Source: Acidimicrobiaceae bacterium
Lineage (GTDB): Bacteria; Actinomycetota; Acidimicrobiia; Acidimicrobiales; RAAP-2
Direction of reading: 5' to 3'
Length of the DNA stretch: 54,875 bases
NCBI GenBank assembly: GCA_027306525.1
Contig: DAHUZM010000105.1
Span: 1 to 54,875 of the forward strand
This document shows positions 1,492-15,192 of the stretch, one piece after another. Position 1 is the stretch's first letter; each line of letters opens with the position of its first letter. Below the pieces are notes generated by a model, which searched no databases, had not been told where the DNA came from, and was given only the letters and a program-made list of their open reading frames with translations. The position numbers and the translations under genes were made by a program.

Positions 1492-1962
1492 GTGGGTCAC
1501 GACGACTGGATCGAACTCACCTCCGGTGAGATCCCACTGGCCGAGATCGCCGCCTGGGTCGTGCGCCCGGGCTGCGGGGCCGTCGACATCTTCTGCGGCA
1601 CCGCGCGCGAGCAGTCCGACGACCGCAAGGGGGTCGAGAGGCTCGAGTACGAGGCCTACGAGCCCTTCGTCGTCCCGAAGATGAGCGAGATCGCGACCCA
1701 GGCCCGCCGTCGCTGGCCGCAGGTGGGCCGGCTCGCGCTGGTGCACCGCGTGGGCCCGGTCGTCATCGGCGAGGCCTCGGTGCTCATCGCGGCCTCGACC
1801 CCCCATCGCCCCGAGTCCTTCGACGTCGTCCGCTGGTGCATCGACACATTGAAGGCCACGGTCCCGATCTGGAAGCGCGAGATCTGGGAGGGCGGCGCCG
1901 ACTGGGGGCTCCATGCCCAGGTGCTCCCCGAGGTGGCCGAGGTGCCGGGGCCCGACCGATGA
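1492..1962 (+). CDS. moaE: Molybdopterin synthase catalytic (large) subunit MoaE
   Basis: The 156-residue protein has the MoaE hallmarks in order: FCGTARE near residue 34, LEYEAYEPF near 52, HRVGPVVIGEASVLIA near 84, STPHR, and KATVPIWKRE near 125, which carries the active-site lysine region. MoaE transfers sulfur from thiocarboxylated MoaD to precursor Z (cPMP) to make molybdopterin dithiolene. The start is GTG, placed 6 nt after a TAGGGT box. The stop overlaps the moaA start (ATGA), so the two are translationally coupled. moaD follows moaA, giving a compact moaE-moaA-moaD operon. Confidence 0.93.
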   Translation: MGHDDWIELTSGEIPLAEIAAWVVRPGCGAVDIFCGTAREQSDDRKGVERLEYEAYEPFVVPKMSEIATQARRRWPQVGRLALVHRVGPVVIGEASVLIAASTPHRPESFDVVRWCIDTLKATVPIWKREIWEGGADWGLHAQVLPEVAEVPGPDR

Positions 1963-3020
1963 CCGAGCGCGCACCGGTCCCCGTCACGCTCGGACCCCGG
2001 CCGAAGCCGACCGGGTCGGACACCGACGATCCCCGCCTGGTCGACCGCTTCGGGCGGGTGCACCGGGACCTGCGGATCTCGATCACCGACCGCTGCAACC
2101 TCCGTTGCGTCTACTGCATGCCCGAGGAAGGGGTCGTGTTCGCGCCGCGGAGCAAGAACCTCACCTATGAAGAGCTGACCCGGATTGCGCGGGTGGCGCG
2201 GGACCTCGGGGTGAGCCGGGTGCGCATCACCGGTGGTGAGCCGCTCGTGCGCCGTGGCGTGGAGTCGTTCGTGGAGAGCCTGGCCGCGCTCGGCTTCGAC
2301 GACGTGTCGATGACGACCAACGGCATCGGCTTGGAGCGCAGGGCGAAAGGCCTCGCCGACGCGGGCCTCCAGCGCGTGAACATCAGCTGTGACTCGCTCC
2401 GGCCGGAGCGGTTCCCAACCATCCGGCGTCGCGGTCAGCTCGCACCGGTGCTGGCGGCGATGGATGCGGCGGAGCGGGCCGGCCTCGCCCCGCTCAAGGT
2501 GAACGTCGTCGTGGTGGCGGGCATCAACGACGACGAGATCGCCGACTTCGCAGGCTTCGCCCGGTCCACCGGTCGGATCGTCCGCTTCATCGAGTACATG
2601 CCCCTCGACGGCGCCGGTCGCTGGGACCGCGCGAGCGTCGTCTCGGCCGATCACATCGTCGAGACCATCGCCGAGCGCTGGCCGCTCGAGTCGGTCGTCC
2701 CGACGGACGCCGATCCGTCCGCCCCCGCGACCCGCTATCGGTTCACCGACGGGGTGGGTGAGATCGGCGTGATCCCGACGGTCACGAAGCCCTTCTGCGG
2801 CACCTGCGACCGGCTGCGGGTGACGGCGGACGGCGCCATCCGGAACTGCCTGTTCGCCAACGAGGAGACGCCGCTGCGCGAGCTCATCCGCGGCGGGGCG
2901 GGCGACGAGCAGATCGCGCTCGCGCTTCGCAGGGCGGTGAACGCCAAGCTGCCCGGACACGGGATCAACGATCCGGGCTTCCTCCGGCCCGCCCGCTCCA
3001 TGTCCATGATCGGCGGGTAG
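1959..3020 (+). CDS. moaA: GTP 3',8-cyclase MoaA (radical SAM)
   Basis: MoaA and MoaC together convert GTP to cyclic pyranopterin monophosphate. The radical SAM cluster motif CNLRCVYC is present near residues 47-54. The second 4Fe-4S ligand set CGTCDRLR...IRNC lies near residues 290-310, and the family-typical C-terminal Gly-Gly (SMIGG) is intact. The protein has 353 residues from the ATG that overlaps the moaE stop. The ORF track's 394-aa version extends upstream into moaE and is rejected. It is co-transcribed with moaE and moaD. Its partner moaC is encoded nearby on the opposite strand, which completes the first step within this locus. Confidence 0.95.
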   Translation: MTERAPVPVTLGPRPKPTGSDTDDPRLVDRFGRVHRDLRISITDRCNLRCVYCMPEEGVVFAPRSKNLTYEELTRIARVARDLGVSRVRITGGEPLVRRGVESFVESLAALGFDDVSMTTNGIGLERRAKGLADAGLQRVNISCDSLRPERFPTIRRRGQLAPVLAAMDAAERAGLAPLKVNVVVVAGINDDEIADFAGFARSTGRIVRFIEYMPLDGAGRWDRASVVSADHIVETIAERWPLESVVPTDADPSAPATRYRFTDGVGEIGVIPTVTKPFCGTCDRLRVTADGAIRNCLFANEETPLRELIRGGAGDEQIALALRRAVNAKLPGHGINDPGFLRPARSMSMIGG

Positions 3021-3257
3021 TTGCCGAGCGTTCTGTTCTTCGGTCCCGCCCGCGACGCCACCGGCACGCGGGCGACGCTCATCGAAGGCCGCACCCTCGG
3101 CGAGGTGGTCGCATCGACCGTCGAGCGCTACGGCGAGGAGCTCGCCCGGCTCATGCCCACCTGTCGGGTGTGGCTCAACGGCGAGCCGGCGACGCCCGAG
3201 ACCCCGGTCAAAGAGAACGATGAGATCGCGCTGCTCCCGCCCGTGTCGGGGGGCTAG
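3021..3257 (+). CDS. moaD: Molybdopterin synthase sulfur carrier subunit MoaD
   Basis: A 78-residue ubiquitin-fold protein ending PPVSGG. The terminal Gly-Gly is the site of adenylation and thiocarboxylation by a MoeB/MoeZ enzyme, and a MoeZ-like protein is encoded at 15,919. Other family signs are VLFFGPARDATG at the N terminus and NGEPATPETPVKENDEIALLPP. The start is TTG, directly abutting the moaA stop. Its stop TAG overlaps tail-to-tail with the mogA stop: the palindrome CTAG at 3254-3257 supplies stop codons on both strands. Confidence 0.92.
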   Translation: MPSVLFFGPARDATGTRATLIEGRTLGEVVASTVERYGEELARLMPTCRVWLNGEPATPETPVKENDEIALLPPVSGG

Positions 3258-3735
3258 CCCGCCGAGGGGTGCGGATCCTGGTCCCCGCCCAAGAGTGCGC
3301 GCGCAGGGGGGAGCACGTCGAGCACGGCGCCGAGGCACTCGGTCGCCCCGCCCGGCGAACCCGGGACGTTGAGGACGAGCGAGCGTCCGAGGGTCCCGGC
3401 GACCGCCCGGCTCAACCGGCCGAGCGGACTCACGGTCCGCATGGCCTCGGCGAGCCCGGGCGCGCCGCGCTCGATTACGAGGAGCGTCGCTTCGGGCGTG
3501 ACGTCGCGTGGCCCGAATCCGGTCCCGCCGGTCGTGACGACGAGCCCGTCGAACCCCGAGCAGAGGGAGCGCAGCGTCGCCGCGATCGGCTCGAGCTCGT
3601 CGGGGCACACGACGCGATCGACGACCTCGTAGCCCTCGGCGGTCAAGAGCTCGGCCAGGGCCGCGCCCGAGCGATCTTCCCGGGTCCCGGCCACCACCCC
3701 GTCGGACACCGTCAGGACCTTTGCCCGGCGCTGGG

Positions 3736-3739
<4 letters not shown>
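3254..3739 (-). CDS. mogA: Molybdopterin adenylyltransferase (MogA/MoaB family)
   Basis: The 161-residue protein has the MoCF-biosynthesis fold: VLTVSDGVVAG, LVVTTGGTGFGPRDVTPEAT (the conserved TGGTG and DvTPEA motifs) and LNVPGSPGGATE. The family adenylylates molybdopterin before metal insertion by MoeA. The TTG start at 3739 overlaps the moaC stop (sequence TTGA), so I discard the longer 226-aa frame in the track. It is the last gene of the long minus-strand cox/Moco operon. MoaB and MogA cannot be separated with certainty from sequence alone. Confidence 0.9.
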
Positions 3740-4230
<491 letters not shown>

Positions 4231-4239
4231 GGGCCGATG

Positions 4240-5496
4240 CTAGGGAAACGCGGCGCTCGGCGGCGCCCCGAATCCGAGACGGTCGGGGTCGAGGAGGAGG
4301 ACGTCGACCGGTTCGCCGGCCCTGACGCCGGTCCCCTCGGGCAGCACCGCCAGGCCGTTCGCCTGGGCCATGGCCAGCAGCTGGTGCGAGTCCTGGCCGC
4401 CCGACGGGCGGACGTGCAGGTGGCCGGCCGAATCGACCTCGGCGACGACCCTCGTGAAGTGGGTCTTGCCGTCGGGCTCACGGGTGAGGTCGACGTCGGC
4501 GATCGCCGACAGCGCAGGCTGGACCAGCTGGCTGTGCCCGGCCATCTTGCGGAGCGCCGGCCGTGCGAACAGCTGGAACGACACCATCGAGGACACCGGG
4601 TTTCCCGGAAGACCGAAGACCGGGACCCGTCCGTCGACCAGCGCGAAGGCGAGCGGCTTGGCCGGGCGGATGGCGACCTGCATCCAGTGCATCTGCGGCC
4701 CGCACATGTCCTGCAGGACGATCCGGACGATGTCGAGGTCGCCGACGCTCACCCCGCCGCTCGTGACCAGCGCATCGCATCGGTTGGCGGCTCGCTCGAT
4801 CGTCTTGCGCAACGTCGCGGCATCGTCGGGGATGATGCCGTAGTCGACGATCGGGTAGCCGGCGCCCTCGAGCAGGGCTGCCAGCACCGGGCGGTTGCCG
4901 TCGCGTATCGCCCCCCGGGGCAGCGACCCCGAGCCCTCCCGCAGCTCGTCGCCCGTCGAGAGGAGCCCGACGGTCGGCGGTCGATGCACCTCGACGCTCT
5001 CGACGCCGATGCGGGCGAGGACGCCGAGGTACGCCTCGCTGAGGACGGTCCCAGCGGGAACGACCTCGCTGCCGGCGGCGATGTCGCTGCCCGGCAGCCG
5101 GACCGCGGTGCCCAGTCCCACGGCCACCTCGACGAGCACCGCCCGGCCGTCGTCCTCGACGCGCGTGCGCTCGACCATGCAGACGGCGTCGGCCCCGTCG
5201 GGCAGGGGCGCACCGGTCATGATCCGCACCGCCTGGCCCGGGCCCACCTCGACCGCGCGGCCGTCGCCCGCCATGACCGAGTCGACCACCGGGAGGAGGA
5301 CCGGCGCCCGGGCGACGTCGGCCGAACGCAGTGCGAAGCCGTCCATCGACGAGGTGGAGAAGGGCGGGACGTCTTCGCCGGACACGATCGCCGCAGCGCT
5401 CACCCGTCCGAGGGCGGCCCGCAGCGGCCGGCGCTCACCCTCGAGGATGGGGCACGCCGAGACGATCAGCTCGCGTGCCTCTTCGAGCGAGATCAA
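4240..5496 (-). CDS. moeA: Molybdopterin molybdenumtransferase MoeA
   Basis: The 418-residue protein inserts molybdate into adenylylated molybdopterin. It shows the MoeA motif series: PPFSTSSMDGFAL (near 44), GAPLPDGADAV, PGSDIAAGSEV, GLLSTGDEL, TSGGVSVGDLDIV and VFGLPGNPVSS, followed by a C-terminal beta-barrel domain. The start is TTG, about 15 bp downstream of the coxG stop. It lies within the minus-strand series that begins with coxD, which ties cofactor synthesis to expression of the molybdenum hydroxylase accessory genes. Confidence 0.94.
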   Translation of the reverse strand: MISLEEARELIVSACPILEGERRPLRAALGRVSAAAIVSGEDVPPFSTSSMDGFALRSADVARAPVLLPVVDSVMAGDGRAVEVGPGQAVRIMTGAPLPDGADAVCMVERTRVEDDGRAVLVEVAVGLGTAVRLPGSDIAAGSEVVPAGTVLSEAYLGVLARIGVESVEVHRPPTVGLLSTGDELREGSGSLPRGAIRDGNRPVLAALLEGAGYPIVDYGIIPDDAATLRKTIERAANRCDALVTSGGVSVGDLDIVRIVLQDMCGPQMHWMQVAIRPAKPLAFALVDGRVPVFGLPGNPVSSMVSFQLFARPALRKMAGHSQLVQPALSAIADVDLTREPDGKTHFTRVVAEVDSAGHLHVRPSGGQDSHQLLAMAQANGLAVLPEGTGVRAGEPVDVLLLDPDRLGFGAPPSAAFP

Positions 5497-5511
5497 CGGT
5501 GAAGAACGCCT

Positions 5512-6198
5512 TCAGCGGCGACGGCGCCGCAAGAAGCGGAAGGCGCCGAGCAGGGCGAACCCGATGACGAGGGGAAGGATCCTCTTCAGCACCGATCCAC
5601 CGGCGACGTCGAGGAGGTCGACGGGCTTCGCCGGCGCCGAGTCGATGGCCCGGGGCCCAGGATCGGTGCTCACCGTGGTCACCCCCGCGCCACCCCCCGC
5701 CCCTGTGTTGGAGCCACTCGAGGCGTCCTCGAGGGCGCTCGGGGGCCCAGCGGGCTCCGAGAGCACGCTCTCTTCGAGCTCGCGGACGAACTGATCGAGG
5801 ATCTTCGCGCTCACCTCGGCCATCGCGCCGCGCCCGAATTGGGCAACCTTGCCGCTGATCTCGAGGTCGGTTGCGATCCGCACCTGGGTCCCGGCCGCGT
5901 CCTGGACGAGGGTCGCGGTGACCGTTGCGCTGGCTGCGCCCTGGCCCTTGGTGTCGCGGCCCTCGGCCCGCAGCACGGCGCGGTGGCCCTCCTCGTCGAG
6001 CTCGACGATCTTGGCCGCGCCCTTGTACTGGGCGGTGATCGGCCCGACCTTCACCTTCACGACGCCGCGATACTCCTCGCCCTCGACCTCGAGGAGCTGC
6101 GCACCGGGCATGCACGGGGCGATCCGCTCGAGATCGGTCAGCACCGCCCACGCGTGCTCGATCGGCACCGAAACTTGAAAGTCATGGTTCAGCTCCAA
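5512..6198 (-). CDS. coxG: CoxG-type SRPBCC protein with C-terminal membrane anchor
   Basis: Residues 1-145 form a CoxG/START-like (SRPBCC) domain (FQVSVPIEHAWAVLTDLERIAPCMPGA, then YRGVVKVKVGPITAQYKG). CoxG of CO oxidizers is reported to help attach CO dehydrogenase to the inner face of the membrane. Here a low-complexity Gly/Ser/Pro linker (about 150-195) leads to a single hydrophobic segment (ILPLVIGFALLGAFRFL) and an Arg-rich tail, i.e. a tail-anchor arrangement that fits that role. It overlaps the NTP-transferase gene upstream by about 10 bp. Confidence 0.85.
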   Translation of the reverse strand: MELNHDFQVSVPIEHAWAVLTDLERIAPCMPGAQLLEVEGEEYRGVVKVKVGPITAQYKGAAKIVELDEEGHRAVLRAEGRDTKGQGAASATVTATLVQDAAGTQVRIATDLEISGKVAQFGRGAMAEVSAKILDQFVRELEESVLSEPAGPPSALEDASSGSNTGAGGGAGVTTVSTDPGPRAIDSAPAKPVDLLDVAGGSVLKRILPLVIGFALLGAFRFLRRRRR

Positions 6199-6743
6199 CG
6201 CGCCAGGTCCTCCACGGTGTCGATGTCAATTGGCCGCCCGGGACACGGTACTTCTTCGACCAGATCGGGATGCTGCCGCTGGAGGATGCGGGCCCCCTCG
6301 TCGCCGTCGAGGGGTAGCAACGGCCACACCGAGGCGGCGAGGCGCGTCGGCGGTCTGCGCTCGCCCTCGAACGAGGCCACGGCGATCGGGCTCGCCGAGT
6401 CGGCCACGGCCCGCCAGGCCTCCGAGGGGACGAGAGGCTGATCGCCGAGGCCGATGACCACCGCGTCGAATCGCCCGCTGGCCCAGGCCACGGCGGCCTG
6501 GAGCGAGGTCGCCTGGCCGTTTTCGAAACGGGGGTTCTCGATCACCACCACGCCATCGGGCAGGGCCGGCCTGAGGTCGACCGCGCCCATCACGAGCGCG
6601 GTCGCATCGAGACCGGCCCCAAGGGCGCGCTCGACCGCCCACCAGACGAGTGGGCGGCCCCGGAACGGCGCCAGGAGCTTGTGCCCCGCTCCGGTGAACC
6701 GGGTCGCCGAGCCGGCGGCGAGGATCACGGCGGCCGCGCTCAC
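6189..6743 (-). CDS. MocA/MobA-like molybdenum cofactor nucleotidyltransferase
   Basis: The 184-residue NTP transferase has VILAAGSATRFTGAGHKLLAPFRGRPLV at the N terminus (the GxxxRxGxxK-type nucleotide-binding loop) and VVIGLGDQPLV (the DQP metal site). This resembles MocA-type CTP:molybdopterin cytidylyltransferases that make the MCD cofactor used by CO dehydrogenases and xanthine-dehydrogenase-like enzymes. MobA (GTP) is less likely given the cox context. The start is GTG, overlapping the XdhC stop by 4 bp. Confidence 0.82.
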   Translation of the reverse strand: MSAAAVILAAGSATRFTGAGHKLLAPFRGRPLVWWAVERALGAGLDATALVMGAVDLRPALPDGVVVIENPRFENGQATSLQAAVAWASGRFDAVVIGLGDQPLVPSEAWRAVADSASPIAVASFEGERRPPTRLAASVWPLLPLDGDEGARILQRQHPDLVEEVPCPGRPIDIDTVEDLARWS

Positions 6744-7591
6744 AAGGCGCGGTTATGCCGGTGGATGGGTCCCGAGCTTGCGCTGAGCGTCACCGCAGCG
6801 TCGGTGCCACTCTGCGCCGCAATGATCTCGGCGCAGATCGACACCGCGGTCTCCTCGGGCGTCCGTGCGCCGATGTCGAGGCCGATCGGTGCACGGACCC
6901 GCGCCAGCTGCTCCTCGGTCACGCCCGCCTCGCCCAAGCGCAGGTTCCTCTGCTCGGTGGTCCGGCGTGATCCCATCGCACCGATGTAGCCAACGTCGGT
7001 CTCGAGGGCGGCGATGATGCCCGGGACGTCGAACTTGGCGTCGTGGGTGAGCACGCACACCGCGTCGCTCGGACCGAGCTCGGGCGCGACCCGTCGCAGG
7101 TAACGGTCGGGCCATTCGGCCACCACCTCGTCCGCGTCTGGGAACCGCCGTGCCGTCGCGAACACCGGCCGGGCATCGCACACGACGACCCGGTACCCGA
7201 GGACCCTTGCCATCGACGCCAGGGCCGCGCTGAAGTCGACCGCTCCCAGGATGATCATGCGCGGTTGAGGGCTGAAGGCCTGGATGAACACACCCACGGC
7301 CTCCTGTCCGATCTCCCCGTGGACCCCGTAGTGGACGAGTGCGTTCCGACCCATCGCAAGAGCCCCGCGCGCGTCCCGTGCGGCCGACGAGTCGAGGCCC
7401 GGCTCGCCCAACGACCCCACCGGCTCGCCGCCCCGCCCGACGAGCAGCTTGCCCCCGAGCCCGGTCATGCCGGGCGCGGTCACGACCGTCGCCAGGGCGA
7501 CCGGTTCGTCGCGGCGTAGTGCGTCGCGGAGGACCTCGTACACCCCGAGCGCCCGAGCACCCCCCGCCGGCGCGTCGTGCCCCTCTACCAA
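6740..7591 (-). CDS. XdhC/CoxI family maturation factor (full-length, Rossmann C-terminal domain)
   Basis: The 283 residues comprise an N-terminal XdhC_CoxI domain (EPVALATVVTAPGMTGLGGKLLV) and a C-terminal XdhC Rossmann domain (MIILGAVDFSAALASMARVLGYRVVVCDARP ... YIGAMGSRRT). XdhC proteins bind, protect and deliver sulfurated Mo cofactor to molybdenum hydroxylases. The TTG start overlaps the stop of the preceding short XdhC-N protein. Together the two probably form a CoxF/CoxI pair. Confidence 0.86.
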   Translation of the reverse strand: MVEGHDAPAGGARALGVYEVLRDALRRDEPVALATVVTAPGMTGLGGKLLVGRGGEPVGSLGEPGLDSSAARDARGALAMGRNALVHYGVHGEIGQEAVGVFIQAFSPQPRMIILGAVDFSAALASMARVLGYRVVVCDARPVFATARRFPDADEVVAEWPDRYLRRVAPELGPSDAVCVLTHDAKFDVPGIIAALETDVGYIGAMGSRRTTEQRNLRLGEAGVTEEQLARVRAPIGLDIGARTPEETAVSICAEIIAAQSGTDAAVTLSASSGPIHRHNRAL

Positions 7592-7899
7592 TCCAGGGGC
7601 TCCACGAAGATCGTGAGCGTCCCACCACAGGTCAGCCCGACGGCGAAGGCCTCGTCGTCGGAGTAGCCGAAGGTGCGGAGTCGTGGCTCACCGCTCGAGA
7701 GCACCTCGAGCGCCTCGGTCACGACGGCGCCCTCAACGCAGCCTCCCGACACCGAGCCCGCGACCTCTCCGTCCTCGCTGACCGCCATGGTGGCACCCGG
7801 CCCCCGCGGGCCGGATCCGAGCACATCGACGACCGTGGCCACGGCGACCCGTCGGCCACCGGCCCGCCAGCGCTCGATGTCGTCCAAGACGTCCTTCAT
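7585..7899 (-). CDS. coxF: Short XdhC N-terminal-domain protein (CoxF-like)
   Basis: The 104-residue protein has only the XdhC_CoxI N-terminal domain: VAVATVVDVLGSGPRGPGATMAV, SGSVSGGCVEGAVV and GLTCGGTLTIFVEPL. The SGGCVE and CGG motifs are typical. The ORF track's 133-aa version is too long; the ATG at 7899 sits behind a good Shine-Dalgarno (AGGAG, 7-8 nt upstream). It lies between coxE and the full-length xdhC and would act in cofactor maturation. The symbol is by analogy with cox operons. Confidence 0.75.
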   Translation of the reverse strand: MKDVLDDIERWRAGGRRVAVATVVDVLGSGPRGPGATMAVSEDGEVAGSVSGGCVEGAVVTEALEVLSSGEPRLRTFGYSDDEAFAVGLTCGGTLTIFVEPLDW

Positions 7900-7915
7900 C
7901 CTTGGCTCCTTCGAA

Positions 7916-9031
7916 TCAGTCCGCGAGCGCGCCCAGCAGTTGGTCGAGCGAGGCGACGTTGTGACCCGGCAGGAAGCGGTCCACATAGGGAAGGGCTGCC
8001 GCCATGCCCCGGGTCAAGGGCTCATAGCCGGGGCTCGCCTTGAGCGGGTTCACCCAGATCACCTGATGGGCCACCCGGTGCAGCCGTGCCATCTGCGATC
8101 CCAGCTCGTCGGGGTCGCCCCGGTCCCAGCCGTCGGAGAGGATGACCACCTGGGACCCGCGGGCCATGCCGCCGATCCCGAAACGGTCGTTGAACTCGCG
8201 AAGGCCGTCGCCGAGCTTCGTCCCGCCGGACCAGTCCGGCACCACCGCCGACGCGGCCACCATGGCGGCGTCGGGGTCACGCGAGGACAGCTGACGGGTG
8301 ATGCGCGTCAGGCGCGTCCCGAGCGCAAAGGCCTCCACGCGTGTTCGCCCGGCGACGACGACGTGGGCGAACCGCAAGATCGCGCGGGCGTAGGGCTCCA
8401 TCGACCCGCTGACGTCGGCGACGAGGACCACCTTGCGAGCGCGCGGGAGCCGGCGCATCGCTTCGAGGTGGGCGATCTCCCCGCCGCTGCGCATCGATCG
8501 TCGGATCGTCGAAGCGATGTCGGGGCGGGTGCCCGAGCGAGCGGCGCGCCAGCGGTGCGATCTGCGGATGGCCTCGGTGGCCGGCATGTCGCGCATGATC
8601 GCCATCGCCTCGGCCAGCTCCTCGGGGGTGCACTCGGCGAAGTTCTTCTCGCGCAACACCTCGACCCTGCTGTAGCTGAGCGACCCCGCTCGCGCTGAGC
8701 CAGACGCGTCCCTGTCGGCGTCGACGCGGAGCCCTTCGGAGGAGAAGTGCGTTGCTGCGTCCTGCTCGTTGTGCGTGTCGCGCTCGGCGAGGCCCCAGTA
8801 CGAAGCGAACGCGCGGTCATAGACCTCGATGTCCTCGGGCCTTCGGACCAGCGTCGCCCGGCCCGCCCAGTACAGCGAGCCGGTGCGATCGGCTCCGAGG
8901 AGGTCGAGCGCACGGACGAAGGTGAAGACGTCGGCGACCGGGGTGCGCAACCCCTGGGCGCGCAGCACCCGGCAGAACCCGACGACCACGCGGATCGGGG
9001 CGTCCGAATCGAGTAGGTCGAGCTCACCCAC
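7916..9031 (-). CDS. coxE: CoxE-type VWA domain protein
   Basis: The 371-residue protein has an N-terminal helical region and a C-terminal von Willebrand A domain with an intact MIDAS DVSGSM motif (near 220), WSGGTKLGDGLREF and VVILSDGWDRGDP. CoxE partners the AAA+ ATPase CoxD in post-translational activation of the Mo/Cu active site of CO dehydrogenase. The GTG start overlaps the coxD stop by 8 bp, as expected for a MoxR/VWA pair. Confidence 0.88.
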   Translation of the reverse strand: MGELDLLDSDAPIRVVVGFCRVLRAQGLRTPVADVFTFVRALDLLGADRTGSLYWAGRATLVRRPEDIEVYDRAFASYWGLAERDTHNEQDAATHFSSEGLRVDADRDASGSARAGSLSYSRVEVLREKNFAECTPEELAEAMAIMRDMPATEAIRRSHRWRAARSGTRPDIASTIRRSMRSGGEIAHLEAMRRLPRARKVVLVADVSGSMEPYARAILRFAHVVVAGRTRVEAFALGTRLTRITRQLSSRDPDAAMVAASAVVPDWSGGTKLGDGLREFNDRFGIGGMARGSQVVILSDGWDRGDPDELGSQMARLHRVAHQVIWVNPLKASPGYEPLTRGMAAALPYVDRFLPGHNVASLDQLLGALAD

Positions 9032-9944
9032 CGGTCACCGCCGAGGCGATCAGCGCCCCGAGCTCGGGTCGGACCCGCTCGGCGTCCTCGCGGTACTTGA
9101 GCACCGCGCCGAGCGTGCGAGACGCACTCTTGGGGTCGAGGGCGTCTCGGCCAAGCGCGTGCAGCGCTCGCGCCCAGTCGATGGCCTCGGCGACCCCCGG
9201 GGACTTGTAGAGGCCCATCGTGCGAAGTCCCTGGACGGCGGTCGTCACCTGACGAGCCAGTTGCTCGCCGGCCTCGGGGACCCGGGTCAAGACGATGGCG
9301 ACCTCTCGGTCCAAGTCGGGGTGTTCCACCCAGTGGTAGATCGCCCGTCGCTTCAGGGCGTCGTGCACGTCCCGGGTGCGGTTCGAGGTGAGGACCACGA
9401 CCGGCGGGACCGCCGCATGGAAGGTCCCGATCTCGGGAACCGTCACGGTGAAGTTGGCCAGGACCTCCAAGAGAAAGGCCTCGAACTCGTCGTCGGCCCG
9501 GTCGATCTCGTCGATGAGGAGCACCGACGGCGCCTGCCTGGCGTCCGTGCTGCCGGCGATCGCCTGCAGGATCGGCCGGCGGATCAAGAAGCGCTCGGAG
9601 AACAGCTCGTCCTCGCCGACCGGGGTGGCCTCGCCGGGGCGGTCATGGGCCCGGATGTAGAGCAACTGGCGCTGGTAGTCCCACTCGTAGATGGCCTGAT
9701 GAGCGGCGATTCCCTCGTAGCACTGCAATCGAATGAGCTCGGCACCGAGCCATTGGGCGAGCGCGTGCGCGACCTCGGTCTTTCCGACCCCGGGCTCGCC
9801 CTCGAGGAAGAGGGGCCGCCGGAGCTGGATGGCGAGGAAGATCGCCGTCGCCAAGCCCTCGCCGGGCAGATAGCCCCGCCCGCGGAGGGCGGTCTCGATC
9901 TCGTCTGGCGTTGCCGGTGGCGTCCACGCCCCCCGAGGAGTCAC
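9024..9944 (-). CDS. coxD: CoxD-type MoxR AAA+ ATPase
   Basis: The 306-residue MoxR-family ATPase has Walker A EGEPGVGKTEV near 50, Walker B SVLLIDEIDRADDEFEAFLLEVL, sensor 1 VVVLTSNRTRDVHDAL and the downstream RRAIYHWVEHPD. CoxD is needed for maturation of the active site of CO dehydrogenase. I place the start at GTG 9944 (VTPRGAW); the track's extension to 10,295 would overlap coxM and carries no domain. It is the first gene of the minus-strand operon that runs to mogA and is divergent from coxMSL. Confidence 0.88.
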   Translation of the reverse strand: MTPRGAWTPPATPDEIETALRGRGYLPGEGLATAIFLAIQLRRPLFLEGEPGVGKTEVAHALAQWLGAELIRLQCYEGIAAHQAIYEWDYQRQLLYIRAHDRPGEATPVGEDELFSERFLIRRPILQAIAGSTDARQAPSVLLIDEIDRADDEFEAFLLEVLANFTVTVPEIGTFHAAVPPVVVLTSNRTRDVHDALKRRAIYHWVEHPDLDREVAIVLTRVPEAGEQLARQVTTAVQGLRTMGLYKSPGVAEAIDWARALHALGRDALDPKSASRTLGAVLKYREDAERVRPELGALIASAVTGG

Positions 9945-10153
9945 GCTCAGAGCGTAGTGGTGCTCGCGCCGAGCCCATCTGAGCAGGCACGGAGGGCCCC
10001 ATCGGGGGTCGGCGTCCCAGCGGTGCCCCCTCGACGCCGCTGGCCTCACCGCTCGAGGCGTTGAGCGATCGCCCAAATCGCCGAGTCGGCGGCGCGCGGA
10101 GGGCACCACTACGATGCCCGCGGAAGCACCGGCTCGACCCGGGGGGAACCCAA
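9945..10153. promoter_or_regulatory. Divergent promoter region between coxD and coxM
   Basis: A 209-bp intergenic region serving both cox transcription units. On the plus strand TACGAT (10,110-10,115) is a plausible -10 box about 40 bp before the coxM start. No clear operator was recognised. Confidence 0.4.
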
Positions 10154-11029
10154 CTGAAGCCTTCTCCGTTCGCATATTTCGCGCCGGCATCGCTCGACGA
10201 GGCGTTGGCGCTCCTCGCAGAGCACGGCGACGACGCCAAGTTGCTCGCCGGTGGGCAAAGCCTGGTGCCCCTCCTCGCGCTGCGGCTCGCGTCACCCTCG
10301 GTGCTGATCGATCTCGGAAGCGTGCCCGGACTCGACTACATCCGGGGCGACGATGGTCACCTGGCGATCGGGGCGATGACGCGCGAGCGGACCGTCGAGC
10401 GCTCCGACCTCGTCAAGTCCTCGGTCCCGCTGCTCTCCGAGGCGATGCCACTGATCGGACATCTCGCCATTCGCAACCGGGGCACGCTTGGCGGCAGCAC
10501 GGCGCACGCCGACCCCTCCGCCGAGATCCCGGCGGTCGCGGTCGCGCTCGACGCGCAGGTCACGGCGACGAGCAGCAAGCGCGGCGAGCGGACCATCCCC
10601 GCCTCCCAGTTCTTCCAGGGGTTCTTCACTACGGCGCTCGAGCCAGATGAGGCGCTCACGCAGGTGCGCTTCCCGGTGGCGGGCCCTGGGACCGGTGTGG
10701 CCTTCGAAGAGGCCACACGCCGCCACGGCGACTTCGCCATGGTGGCGGCGGCGGCGGCGGTGCGGATCGACGACGGACGCATCGGGGATGCACGGATCGT
10801 CACCATCGGCGTTTCCGATGTGCCCGTCCGGTGCCGGGAGGCCGAGCAGGCGCTGATCGGCGTCGAACCCCTCGCCTCGGCATTCGAGGAGCCGAGCTCC
10901 CTCGCCGCCAGCGCGTGTGATCCACCGTCGGATCTCCATGGAACGAGCGCCTATCGCAAGCACCTGATCCGGGTGCTCGTGCGGCGAGCGTTGGAGAAAT
11001 CAACAAGACGTCCCAAGGAGCAGACTTGA
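10154..11029 (+). CDS. coxM: Molybdenum hydroxylase FAD-binding medium subunit (CoxM-like)
   Basis: The 291-residue FAD subunit begins KPSPFAYFAPASLDEALALL. It shows the two FAD-binding motifs of the family, AGGQSLVPLLALRL (near 33-46) and the NRGTLGGSTAHADPSAEIP type (near 108-127). It passes electrons from the FeS subunit via FAD to an acceptor. Homology puts the first residue at a CTG (10,154) preceded by GGGGGG about 8 nt upstream. No in-frame ATG/GTG fits nearby, so this is an unusual CTG start. It is the first gene of coxM-coxS-coxL and overlaps coxS by 4 bp. Confidence 0.9.
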   Translation: MKPSPFAYFAPASLDEALALLAEHGDDAKLLAGGQSLVPLLALRLASPSVLIDLGSVPGLDYIRGDDGHLAIGAMTRERTVERSDLVKSSVPLLSEAMPLIGHLAIRNRGTLGGSTAHADPSAEIPAVAVALDAQVTATSSKRGERTIPASQFFQGFFTTALEPDEALTQVRFPVAGPGTGVAFEEATRRHGDFAMVAAAAAVRIDDGRIGDARIVTIGVSDVPVRCREAEQALIGVEPLASAFEEPSSLAASACDPPSDLHGTSAYRKHLIRVLVRRALEKSTRRPKEQT

Positions 11030-11514
11030 ACACGATCGATGTCGAGCTGACCGTCAACGGAGAGCGCCGTTCGGCGACCGTCGATCCGCGCAAGACCCTC
11101 GCCGATGTCCTCCGCGACGACCTCGAGCTCACCGGGACCCATGTCGGCTGCGAACACGGTGTCTGTGGGGCCTGCACCGTGCTCATCGACGGCCAGGCGG
11201 CCCGTTCGTGTCTGACGTTCGCAGTACAGGTACGCGGTTCGCAGATCACGACGATCGAAGGTCTCGCCAACGACGGGGAGCTGAACCCGCTGCAACAAGC
11301 GATGGTCGACAGTCACGGGTTCCAGTGTGGCTTTTGCACGCCGGGGTTCTTGATGCAGATCACCGCCCTGCTCGCCGACAACCCGACGCCGAGTGAGCCA
11401 GAGGTGCGCGAAGCGCTGTCAGGGAACGTCTGTCGCTGCACCGGGTATCAAAGCATTGTCGTCGGCGTGTTGCGCGCCGCCGGCGGGTCCTCGATCGCGA
11501 CGAGCGCACACTAA
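11026..11514 (+). CDS. coxS: Molybdenum hydroxylase 2Fe-2S small subunit (CoxS-like)
   Basis: The 162-residue ferredoxin-fold subunit carries both 2Fe-2S cluster motifs. The plant-type N-terminal motif is CEHGVCGACTVLIDG followed by RSC. The C-terminal motif is CGFCTPGF with CRCTGYQ. It shuttles electrons between the Mo site and FAD. The TTG start lies inside the coxM stop (TTGA) behind an AAGGAG Shine-Dalgarno. It is about 10 bp upstream of coxL. Confidence 0.95.
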   Translation: MNTIDVELTVNGERRSATVDPRKTLADVLRDDLELTGTHVGCEHGVCGACTVLIDGQAARSCLTFAVQVRGSQITTIEGLANDGELNPLQQAMVDSHGFQCGFCTPGFLMQITALLADNPTPSEPEVREALSGNVCRCTGYQSIVVGVLRAAGGSSIATSAH

Positions 11515-11524
11515 GGGAGCAACG

Positions 11525-13858
11525 ATGTCCACTGAGGTTGCCCAGCGCTACGTGGGGGCGTCGGTCGCCCGATCCGAGGATCCTCGGATCCTCACCGGCG
11601 GGGGGAAGTACGTCGACGACGTGAAGCTCCCCGGCATGCTGCACGCGGCCTTCCTGCGGAGCCCGTTCCCGCACGCCAAGATCGTGAGCATCGACGCCAG
11701 CGCGGCCCGCGAGGCCGAGGGCGTCGTCCTCGTCTATACGGGCGAGGACCTCGAAGCGATGATCAGGCCTGGTCCCTACGGGATCTCCCTCATGATGAAC
11801 CAGGACAAGCCGGCGTTCTCGTGCCTCGCGACCGACAAGGTGCGCCTGGTCGGCGACCCGGTGGCGTTGGTGGTGGCCGAGAGCCGTTACCTCGCCGAGG
11901 ATGCTATCGAGCTGATCGACGTCGACTACGAGGACCTGGCCCCCATTGCGACCTACGAGCAGGCGCTCGACCCGACCAACCCGCCCATCTTCGAGGACCT
12001 CGGATCCAACGTGCTGGCCGAGTCGGATCTCCACACCCACGGTGATGTCGAGGGCGCGTTCGCGCGTGCCGATCACGTCCTGTCGGTGAGGATCAACCAG
12101 CACCGTCATCAGAACGTGCCGATGGAGACGCGCGGGTTCCTTGCGAGCTACGACCGCGAGGCGGATCACCTCCTCGTCTGGTCGGCGAATCAAGGTGTCC
12201 ACCTCGCGTTGCACATCCTCGCCGGCCGGCTCGGCCTTTCGCCCGAGAAGATCCGAGTCCGAACGGCCGACGTGGGCGGATCGTTCGGCCTGAAGATCGG
12301 CGCGACACGCGAGGAGGTCGCCGTTGCCGCTGCGTCGATGGCGCTCGGACGGCCGGTCAAGTACATCGAAGACCGCTACGAGAACCTCATGGCGTCAGGG
12401 CAGGCACGTGAGGAGTACCTCGACGTCGAGGCCGCCTACAGCGACGACGGGGACATCCTCGGCATGAAGGTGCACATGGTGGTCGATGCGGGGGCCTACC
12501 CCGGCATGGCCGCCGCCCTGCCCACGATGGTCGAGGGGATGCTCCCAAGCGCCTATCGCATCGGCGCGCTCGAGTTCCGCTCGACCGTGCTCGTCACGAA
12601 CAAGGCCACCTACGTCGCCTATCGGGGGCCGTGGGCCGTCGAGACCTTCGTGCGGGAGCGAGTCGTCGACCTGGTCGCCCGGGAGCTCGGGATGGAACCC
12701 TTCGAGATCCGCATGCGCAACGTCGTGACCAGGGGCGAGGAACCGACGAGCATGATCACCGGCCGCAGCCTGGACGGCGTCACGGTGAGAGAGTCGCTCG
12801 AGCGGATGGCCGAGACGGTCGACATCCCCGCCTTCCGCCGGCGCCAGGAGGCCGCCAGGGCCGAGGGCCGTTACCTCGGACTCGGGATCGCGTCCTACAT
12901 CGAGGCCGCTCCCGGTCCGCGGGCGGGGCAGTCGCCGCTCGGCCTGGAGCAGATGCGCATGGAGCTCGACGGGGACGGCAAGCTCCTCGTCTACACCGGG
13001 CAGATGCCCCACGGGCAGAGCCACGAGACCACCCTCGCCCAGATCGCAGCCGACGAGTTCGGGGTGCGCTTCGAGGACGTCCGAGTGGTCGTCGGGGACT
13101 CCGACCTCGTCCCGCCCGGCTTCACCGGCGGCAGTCGCTCGGCGACCATGGCCGGCGGGGCGGCCCTCACCACGGCCCGGGCCTTGCGGGCCAAGGTGCT
13201 CGAGCTCGGTGCGCACCTGCTCGAGGCGAACGTCTCGGACCTACGAATCGAAGACGGAGCGATCTCCGTTGCCGGGGTCCCGTCGAGTGCCATGGGACTC
13301 GCCGAACTGGTGGCGGCGGTGCAAGAGCCGGGGCGGCTCCCAGAGGAGGTCGACACCGAGTTGAAGGTGGCGAATTCCTATGACGGCGGAGCCGGCGGCT
13401 GGTCCGGGGGCACCCATTGCGCCATCGTGGAGGTCGACGTCGAGACCGGGCTCGTCACCTTCGAGCGCTACGTCGTGACCGAGGACTGCGGGAAGCTGAT
13501 CAACCCGGCTGTCGTGGACGGCCAGGTCCGCGGGGGCGTGGCCCAGGGTGTCGGCGCCGTGCTGCTCGAGCGCGCCGCGTACGACGAGCGCGGGAACTTC
13601 CTTGCCGCCACGTTCATGGACTACCTCATGCCGACGACGATGGACGTCCCCAACATCGAGATCTCGCATCTCGAGACCATCCCGCTCGATCCCGACGTCA
13701 ACTTCCGAGGGATCGGTGAGGGCGGGATGATCGTGGCTCCGGCAACGATCGTCAACGCGATCGAGGACGCCCTGGCCCCCCTCGGCGTCCGGATCCACGA
13801 GCAGCACCTCCCCCCGGCCCGCATCTTGGAGCTGGCGGGAGTCGTTGAGCCCGAGTGA
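11525..13858 (+). CDS. coxL: Molybdenum hydroxylase large subunit, CO-dehydrogenase-like, atypical active-site loop
   Basis: The 777-residue Mo-MCD-binding catalytic subunit of the xanthine dehydrogenase/CO dehydrogenase family has RSEDPRILTGGGKYVDD at the N terminus, NVPMETRGF, ADVGGSFGLK, and GIGEGGMIVAPA with the catalytic Glu near residue 731. The active-site loop reads VAYRGPWAVETF (near 363). Form I CoxL has AYRCSFR with the Cu-binding Cys and form II usually has AYRGAGR; this is neither. The M-S-L gene order is that of form I operons. CO oxidation is therefore not assured; another hydroxylation substrate is possible. The ATG at 11,525 has an AAGGGAG Shine-Dalgarno; the track start at 11,393 lies inside coxS. 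Confidence 0.88.
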   Translation: MSTEVAQRYVGASVARSEDPRILTGGGKYVDDVKLPGMLHAAFLRSPFPHAKIVSIDASAAREAEGVVLVYTGEDLEAMIRPGPYGISLMMNQDKPAFSCLATDKVRLVGDPVALVVAESRYLAEDAIELIDVDYEDLAPIATYEQALDPTNPPIFEDLGSNVLAESDLHTHGDVEGAFARADHVLSVRINQHRHQNVPMETRGFLASYDREADHLLVWSANQGVHLALHILAGRLGLSPEKIRVRTADVGGSFGLKIGATREEVAVAAASMALGRPVKYIEDRYENLMASGQAREEYLDVEAAYSDDGDILGMKVHMVVDAGAYPGMAAALPTMVEGMLPSAYRIGALEFRSTVLVTNKATYVAYRGPWAVETFVRERVVDLVARELGMEPFEIRMRNVVTRGEEPTSMITGRSLDGVTVRESLERMAETVDIPAFRRRQEAARAEGRYLGLGIASYIEAAPGPRAGQSPLGLEQMRMELDGDGKLLVYTGQMPHGQSHETTLAQIAADEFGVRFEDVRVVVGDSDLVPPGFTGGSRSATMAGGAALTTARALRAKVLELGAHLLEANVSDLRIEDGAISVAGVPSSAMGLAELVAAVQEPGRLPEEVDTELKVANSYDGGAGGWSGGTHCAIVEVDVETGLVTFERYVVTEDCGKLINPAVVDGQVRGGVAQGVGAVLLERAAYDERGNFLAATFMDYLMPTTMDVPNIEISHLETIPLDPDVNFRGIGEGGMIVAPATIVNAIEDALAPLGVRIHEQHLPPARILELAGVVEPE

Positions 13859-14214: not shown

Positions 14215-15192
14215 ATGGAGCGCTTTGAGGGTCGCATCGCCGTCGTCACCGGCGGGGGGACGGGCATGGGGCGGGCACTGGTCCGCCAGCTGGCCAAGGA
14301 GGGATGCCACGTCGCGACCTGCGACGTGTTCGACGAACCGATGGCCGAGACCAAGGATCTCGCCCTCGAAGCGGCGCCCGAGGGCACCCGGGTCACCACC
14401 TTTCGCGCGGACGTCTCGGACGAGGGCCAGGTGCGAGCGTTCCGCGATGCCGTCGAGCGGGAGCACGCCACGGAGCACATCCACCTGTTGTTCAACAACG
14501 CGGGCATCGGCGGTGGGGGATCGATGATCGCCGACGACCGCAGCACCTGGGAGCGAACCTTCGGGGTCGACTGGGGCGGGGTCTACCACTGCACCCGCAC
14601 CTTCCTCCCCATGCTGATCGCGGCCGAAGAGGGGCATCTCGTCAACACGAGCAGCCTGAACGGCCTGTTTGCCTCGATCGGACCGATGACCCCCCACACC
14701 GCCTACAGCGCCGCGAAGTTCGCCGTGCGGGGATTCTCCGAGGCCCTCATCGCCGACTTCCGGGTGAACGCGCCGCACCTGCGCGTCTCGGTGGTCATGC
14801 CCGGGCACATCGGGACCTCCATCGTGCTCAACTCGGCGAAGGCGCACGGGAACTCGGCCGACGACATGACCGAGGAGGACCTCGAGCGCTTCCGCAGGCA
14901 GCTCAACCGCCAGGGACTGCCGGCCGACGGGATCTCCGACGAGGACCTGCGCAAGGGCGTCCAGATGTTGGGGGAGCAATTCCGGGACAACGCGCCGACC
15001 TCGGCGGAGGAGGCGGCCAAGATCATCTTGGACGGGGTGCGGGCGAACCGGTGGCGCATCATCGTCGGCCACGACGCCGAGGTCATCGACGCCGAGGTCC
15101 GCAAGGACCCCGAACACGCCTATGACGTCGACTTCTGGGAGAACATGCGCTCGCGGGGCCTCTTCGGCCTCTTCGGCGCGCCCGCCGAGTAG
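14215..15192 (+). CDS. Short-chain dehydrogenase/reductase (classical SDR)
   Basis: The 325-residue SDR has the cofactor motif VTGGGTGMGRAL (residues 10-21), the structural NNAG, the catalytic Ser region TSSLNG and the YSAAK catalytic Tyr-Lys. The C-terminal extension beyond residue 250 is longer than in minimal SDRs. Substrate unknown. The ATG is preceded by a strong GAAGGAGGGG Shine-Dalgarno. It converges on the nitroreductase, with stop codons directly adjacent. Confidence 0.88.
   Translation: MERFEGRIAVVTGGGTGMGRALVRQLAKEGCHVATCDVFDEPMAETKDLALEAAPEGTRVTTFRADVSDEGQVRAFRDAVEREHATEHIHLLFNNAGIGGGGSMIADDRSTWERTFGVDWGGVYHCTRTFLPMLIAAEEGHLVNTSSLNGLFASIGPMTPHTAYSAAKFAVRGFSEALIADFRVNAPHLRVSVVMPGHIGTSIVLNSAKAHGNSADDMTEEDLERFRRQLNRQGLPADGISDEDLRKGVQMLGEQFRDNAPTSAEEAAKIILDGVRANRWRIIVGHDAEVIDAEVRKDPEHAYDVDFWENMRSRGLFGLFGAPAE

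Follow-up and report, generated by a model that had tools for sequence, protein, structure and literature searches.

Several described systems bear on the locus reported here. In the enzymes compared below, an active-site loop lies about 4 Å from the Mo and differs with the substrate, reading AYRAPG in Kdh, AYRGVG in Qor, AFRGFG in XDH and AYRCSF in CO dehydrogenase (CODH), and the loss of Glu748 abolishes the activity of Kdh (PMC8305194). In CoxL, the large subunit of CODH, the Cu ligand is Cys388 (PMC6334162), and the criterion for form I is an identity of >55% to the reference CoxL (PMC6794299). The CoxF protein of O. carboxidovorans has a putative Cu-binding motif, MCPSHGTM, and a phytase motif, RHGXRX (PMC4240915). 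On the nicotine plasmid pAO1, genes for MoxR ATPase, VWA, XdhC and SRPBCC proteins lie beside kdh together with a MobA-like nicotine blue oxidoreductase gene, and because the same set thus stands beside nicotine hydroxylase genes, the combination of CoxD, CoxE, CoxF, CoxG and a MobA-like protein is not specific to CO.

The locus studied here lies in a 54,875-nucleotide stretch from an Acidimicrobiaceae bacterium (contig DAHUZM010000105.1), which we call the window. Its first 14 kb is a molybdenum-enzyme island, since the three subunit genes of a hydroxylase, maturation genes, genes for MoaC, MogA-like, MoaD-like, MoaA and MoaE proteins, a TOBE regulator gene and a probable molybdate-binding protein gene occur together there. 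The subunit genes run in the order medium, small, large (M-S-L) on the forward strand and encode a medium (FAD) subunit (about 10154-11029; Pfam FAD_binding_5 and CO_deh_flav_C), a small subunit with two [2Fe-2S] clusters (11026-11514; Fer2 and Fer2_2) and a large, MCD-binding subunit of 777 aa (11525-13858). The start of the medium subunit is uncertain, with no ATG, GTG or TTG at the homologous start (window 10061-10205), and is probably a CTG at 10154 that follows GGGGGG, the other candidate being an upstream TTG at 10061. Divergent from these genes, at 4240-9953 on the reverse strand, lie homologues of coxD and coxE, xdhC (two ORFs), mocA, coxG and moeA. They encode a CoxD-like MoxR AAA+ ATPase of Mo-centre maturation (9024-9953, start approximate), a CoxE-like VWA protein (7916-9031; VWA_CoxE), a short XdhC/CoxI N-terminal-domain protein (XdhC-N; 7585-7899; XdhC_CoxI), an XdhC family chaperone for Moco sulfuration and insertion (6740-7591; XdhC_C and XdhC_CoxI), a MocA-like molybdenum cofactor cytidylyltransferase that would make MCD (6189-6743; NTP_transf_3, with TIGR03310 as the best NCBIfam match, below its cut-off), a CoxG-like SRPBCC protein (5512-6198; COXG), whose hydrophobic and Arg-rich C-terminal tail is likely a membrane anchor, and MoeA (4240-5496). 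MoaC (3739-4230; Pfam MoaC) and a MogA/MoaB-like protein (3257-3739; MoCF_biosynth) are encoded on the same strand. The forward strand carries genes for a MoaD-like protein of the ThiS family (3021-3257), MoaA (1959-3020; Radical_SAM and Mob_synth_C), MoaE (1492-1962) and an HTH-TOBE protein that is a probable molybdate-responsive regulator (1015-1431; TOBE and MerR), and a periplasmic binding protein gene on the reverse strand, probably modA, runs to the window edge (2-835; SBP_bac_11). With MCD-synthesis and XdhC-type maturation genes (MocA-like, XdhC) adjoining M-S-L, the cofactor itself is predicted. The M-S-L order and the accessory homologues named in a preliminary description of this DNA are thus present, but the accessories diverge from the subunit genes, whereas those of the O. 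carboxidovorans cox cluster lie downstream on the same strand.

The large subunit carries the marks of the xanthine oxidase superfamily, namely the Pfam domains Ald_Xan_dh_C, MoCoBD_1 and MoCoBD_2, partner subunits with FAD and 2x[2Fe-2S], and the active-site Glu, E732. Its reading frame encodes VAYRGPWAVETF at 12614-12649, and the active-site loop AYRGPW within it (residues 365-370; 12617-12634, forward strand) is invariant in the 12-member A1 alignment. G368 occupies the position of Cys388 of CoxL in the alignment, and the Cu-binding Cys is absent. The catalytic Glu is kept, E732 aligning with Glu763 of CoxL and Glu748 of Kdh, and Q223 aligns with Gln240 of CoxL. Together with the fold match given below, this active site supports a mononuclear Mo hydroxylase, whose chemistry would be that of the family. 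One alignment also pairs W370 with F390 of CoxL; we did not adopt this equation, since the shorter AYRGPW loop and the gapped NdhL-type rows make the register ambiguous. The subunit is 32.8% identical to O. carboxidovorans CoxL, below the form I threshold, and has AYRGPW in place of the form I loop AYXCSFR with its Cu-ligand Cys. It reached the cut-off of no NCBIfam model (TIGR02416, 498 bits against 991). By sequence search alone, M. smegmatis CODH (8uem) comes just ahead of quinoline 2-oxidoreductase (1t3q), the two being almost equal, and overall similarity is therefore non-discriminating. The AlphaFold model (mean pLDDT 88.4) has 1t3q as its best fold match (TM 0.91), ahead of 8uem (0.89).

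The motif is not due to chance, since VAYRGPW is kept in five orthologues from related genomes (90, 79, 75, 68 and 64% identity) and [AP]YR[GA]P[WF] is present in 64 of 129 full-length homologues; remoter homologues, at about 40 to 50% identity, keep [AP]YRGPW. Its hosts in the named genome collection are Acidimicrobiia, Streptosporangiaceae, Nocardia, Mycobacterium, Frankia, Novosphingobium, Sphingobium and Acidobacteriota, and the clade as a whole spans Actinomycetota, sphingomonads and Acidobacteriota; one cultured relative with an orthologue is Trebonia kvetii. On the plasmid of Streptomyces sp. NBC_01707 (L031, 9449-12340), an AYRGPW enzyme has its iron-sulfur subunit fused to the large subunit; it lies in a cluster of biosynthetic type that also encodes condensation domains, a P450 and two proteins resembling tRNA synthetases. 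Large subunits exceed the usual 780 residues by 70-130 in two subgroups of the clade, one from Acidimicrobiia and one from sphingomonads (about 850 aa in L050, L051 and L053; about 900 aa in L063, L070, L077, L080, L084, L096, L098 and L117).

Loop length separates the groups as well. Counted from the Gly or Cys of the loop to the conserved Glu in the helix that comes next, the spacing is 9 residues in 64/64 AYRGPW rows, 10 in 44/44 measured rows of form II, NdhL and similar enzymes, and 11 in all 6 form I rows that were measured, a count that leaves out 25 homologues, among them KdhL, which has 10 by eye. The AYRGPW loop is one residue shorter than that of form II and two shorter than that of form I in all 64 rows, and because of these spacings we regard it as a different structural class, beyond a mere difference in spelling. 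The 9/10/11 split holds in all measured rows and could be a simple annotation filter.

In a tree of the 129 homologues with the loop columns masked, a single branch (SH-aLRT 86) separates the 64 motif rows from the rest. A mixture-model tree of 54 rows that includes reference enzymes, likewise built without the loop columns, gives the AYRGPW clade an SH-aLRT of 92, and both values lie below the 95 mark. A branch with a support of 99 in the 54-row tree divides the clade, on the side of the nicotine dehydrogenase NdhL, from form I and form II; the clade is not nested with NdhL, and form I, including the CoxL of O. carboxidovorans and T. roseum, nests with form II. Kdh falls on the form I/II side, and N-heterocycle hydroxylases therefore occur on both sides. 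By its loop motif, its 9-residue spacing and its position in the one clade, the window enzyme belongs to the AYRGPW group. Both trees place it outside the form I clade, and it has neither the AYXGAGR loop of form II nor a place with the AYRGAGRPE sequences. A form II CoxL whose loop had drifted from AYRGAGR would fit an accessory module that is common to form II loci of the window's order, but such an origin is highly improbable, with form II sequences grouping with form I and away from the AYRGPW clade, identities of only 36-39%, and a loop length that differs in every measured row. Since a literature search for AYRGPW or YRGPW gave no relevant paper with the motif, and no NCBIfam cut-off was reached for the large subunit, this distinct, uncharacterised clade appears to be unnamed.

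The preliminary description had stated that the CoxL-like subunit carries an AYRGPW loop, that it fits neither form I nor canonical form II and that a Mo-Cu site is unlikely. The first statement is confirmed by the translation, the orthologues and the 64 of 129 homologues; the second is supported by the loop, the two trees and the spacing, and the third by G368 at the Cys position and a clade outside form I.

We conclude, with a probability of roughly 90%, that the M-S-L genes encode a heterotrimeric, MCD-dependent hydroxylase of the xanthine oxidase superfamily that acts on an organic substrate, belongs to the AYRGPW clade and is not a CODH. The catalytic centre would be a mononuclear Mo(VI)(=O)(=S)(OH), at which E732 acts as the base and a carbon of the substrate is hydroxylated with oxygen derived from water. 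Judging from the chemistry of the family, the most likely substrates are aldehydes and electron-poor rings, N-heteroaromatics among them. The two electrons would pass through the two [2Fe-2S] clusters to FAD and from there, probably aided by the CoxG-like protein, to the respiratory chain. CoxD, CoxE, XdhC and MocA would form a general module for MCD synthesis and for sulfuration and insertion of the Mo centre, and would not be copper loaders. The contrary view, an atypical CODH without the canonical Cys that holds its Cu otherwise or has a Cu-free Mo site, would accommodate the M-S-L order, the coxDEFG-like accessories and 8uem as the top sequence match. We consider it very improbable: the Cys is absent in 64/64 members of the clade, the clade groups with neither form I nor form II, its loop falls two residues short of the form I loop, and form II itself is not recognised as a physiological CODH (PMC6794299). 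In M. smegmatis mc2 155, which has six other Mo hydroxylases, the delta-coxL strain is reported to lose all CO oxidation (PMC6794299); if one of the six carried the AYRGPW loop, this would argue against CO as its substrate. A motif scan found neither the copper nor the phytase motif of CoxF in the window's XdhC proteins, which also speaks against this view; the copper motif was not found in related form I loci either, and its absence is therefore a weak feature by itself.

The accessory set had been thought to resemble a form I CO locus, and the enzyme to reuse the CODH maturation machinery. Neither idea survives comparison with pAO1, whose nicotine hydroxylases have the same set. The window proteins are closer to those of pAO1 than to those of O. 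carboxidovorans for CoxG (50% versus 24% identity), XdhC (47% versus 26%), XdhC-N (58% versus 34%, and 41% to CoxI) and CoxE (39% versus 29%), with CoxD at 52% versus 51%. This closeness could partly reflect the shared phylum, and as a control the accessories were compared with form I loci and one form II locus from the window's own order. The form II locus (CoxG 72%, XdhC-N 77%, CoxE 54% and CoxD 65% identity) also surpassed the form I loci (XdhC 28-29% and CoxE 33-42%). In another locus of this order (L142, 2540-16654), three AYRGAGR large-subunit genes lie around a single maturation module.

The maturation module and the neighbouring enzyme are independent of each other. The block order coxD-coxE-xdhC-mocA-coxG is conserved in 7/7 congeneric genomes (G000 to G006, G000 being that of the window) and continues into moeA/moaC/mogA in six of the seven. 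The AYRGPW M-S-L genes adjoin the module in G000, G002 and G005. G001 has the module between an AYRGPWQ paralogue and a form II enzyme, the orthologue being on another contig; in G003, G004 and G006 the module has no enzyme directly beside it; and in G028, from another genus of the same family, a form II operon takes the enzyme's place. This swapping of enzymes beside a conserved module, together with the pAO1 set, rules out reading the locus as a CODH from its gene order and accessories. In the window's genome (89% complete), no xanthine-oxidase-family hydroxylase other than the AYRGPW enzyme was found, and G002 and G005 likewise gave a single match. The module therefore appears to serve a Cys-less enzyme in these three genomes, which argues that coxD, coxE and xdhC do general Mo-centre work. 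In a sister species, LarB/LarC-type genes (AIRC and Ni_insertion domains; L156, 13663-15671) lie near the molybdenum maturation module, and L154 and L155 have genes similar in size and order to this pair.

The preliminary description had also suggested that the enzyme hydroxylates another small substrate. That the substrate is another one is probable from the tree, the loop spacing and the missing Cys; that it is small was not borne out. No conserved catabolic neighbours were found at the window operon or in the closest relatives in other genera. We discarded as substrate clues an SDR gene at 14215-15192, which is not beside the orthologue in the sister species G002, and the acyl-CoA neighbours, a signal of distant members that is absent from the closest clade loci. 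Two narrower versions of the hydroxylase reading can be put forward tentatively. The enzyme might serve a pathway that degrades alicyclic, aromatic or terpenoid/steroid-like compounds by way of CoA esters, acting by ring hydroxylation or by oxidation of an aldehyde intermediate. Distant members (44-51% identity) lie near genes for acyl-CoA dehydrogenases, enoyl-CoA hydratase, AMP ligase, CaiB and thiolase, two Acidobacteriota loci have ChsH2-type OB-fold and thiolase proteins, and at least two such families occur in 13/46 clade loci against 2/26 other loci, a suggestive count that is biased by the choice of reference families from clade loci; however, such genes occur in 0/6 closest-clade loci of the count and are absent from the window. 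Possible too, and likewise rather doubtful, is a broad-specificity aldehyde oxidase of detoxification or scavenging that works without pathway partners. An isolated M-S-L operon in the closest relatives from other genera, and an enzyme that is the sole hydroxylase of its family found in the genome, would suit this role, but fold and tree are nearer to N-heterocycle hydroxylases, and the large subunit scores 582 bits against the curated cut-off of 790 of the glyceraldehyde dehydrogenase alpha subunit model (NF041018). More speculative, and in our view unlikely, is that the clade is an unrecognised third CoxL-like branch in which the Pro-Trp loop, one residue shorter, gives the Mo pocket a shape suited to a substrate new to the xanthine oxidase family, for instance a terpenoid/steroid-type intermediate or a volatile trace organic, and that some genomes keep the whole MCD module for this branch alone.

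Surveys of CO oxidation count coxL-like genes and take coxDEFG neighbours as support. The AYRGPW clade shows that such neighbours form a maturation module common to different enzymes, and that a large group of widely distributed CoxL homologues fits neither form. With its conserved Pro-Trp loop, the question of the substrate can be put directly to experiment.

Compared with known systems, the window enzyme shares with the form I Mo-Cu CODH of O. carboxidovorans and M. smegmatis (8uem) the fold, the M-S-L trimer and the kinds of accessory genes, but it differs in having no Cys, in its side of the tree, in a loop two residues shorter and in the missing CoxF copper motif. Like form II CoxL, it has no Cys and is found with the same maturation module in related genomes, but it forms a separate clade, and the form II loop AYXGAGR is one residue longer than AYRGPW. 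The pAO1 enzymes are only distantly similar (NdhL 38% and KdhL 34% identity), have loops one residue longer and, unlike the window locus, stand among nicotine pathway genes; NdhL nevertheless shares the clade's side of the tree, the pathway cluster includes the same CoxD/E/F/G and MobA-like genes, and the Kdh loop likewise has a Pro after the small residue. QorL (1t3q) has its own loop, AYRGVG (PMC8305194), and its own substrate pocket, with 38% identity in the fold alignment, but it is the best fold match and has the same Pfam domain order, trimeric plan and catalytic Glu as the window enzyme.
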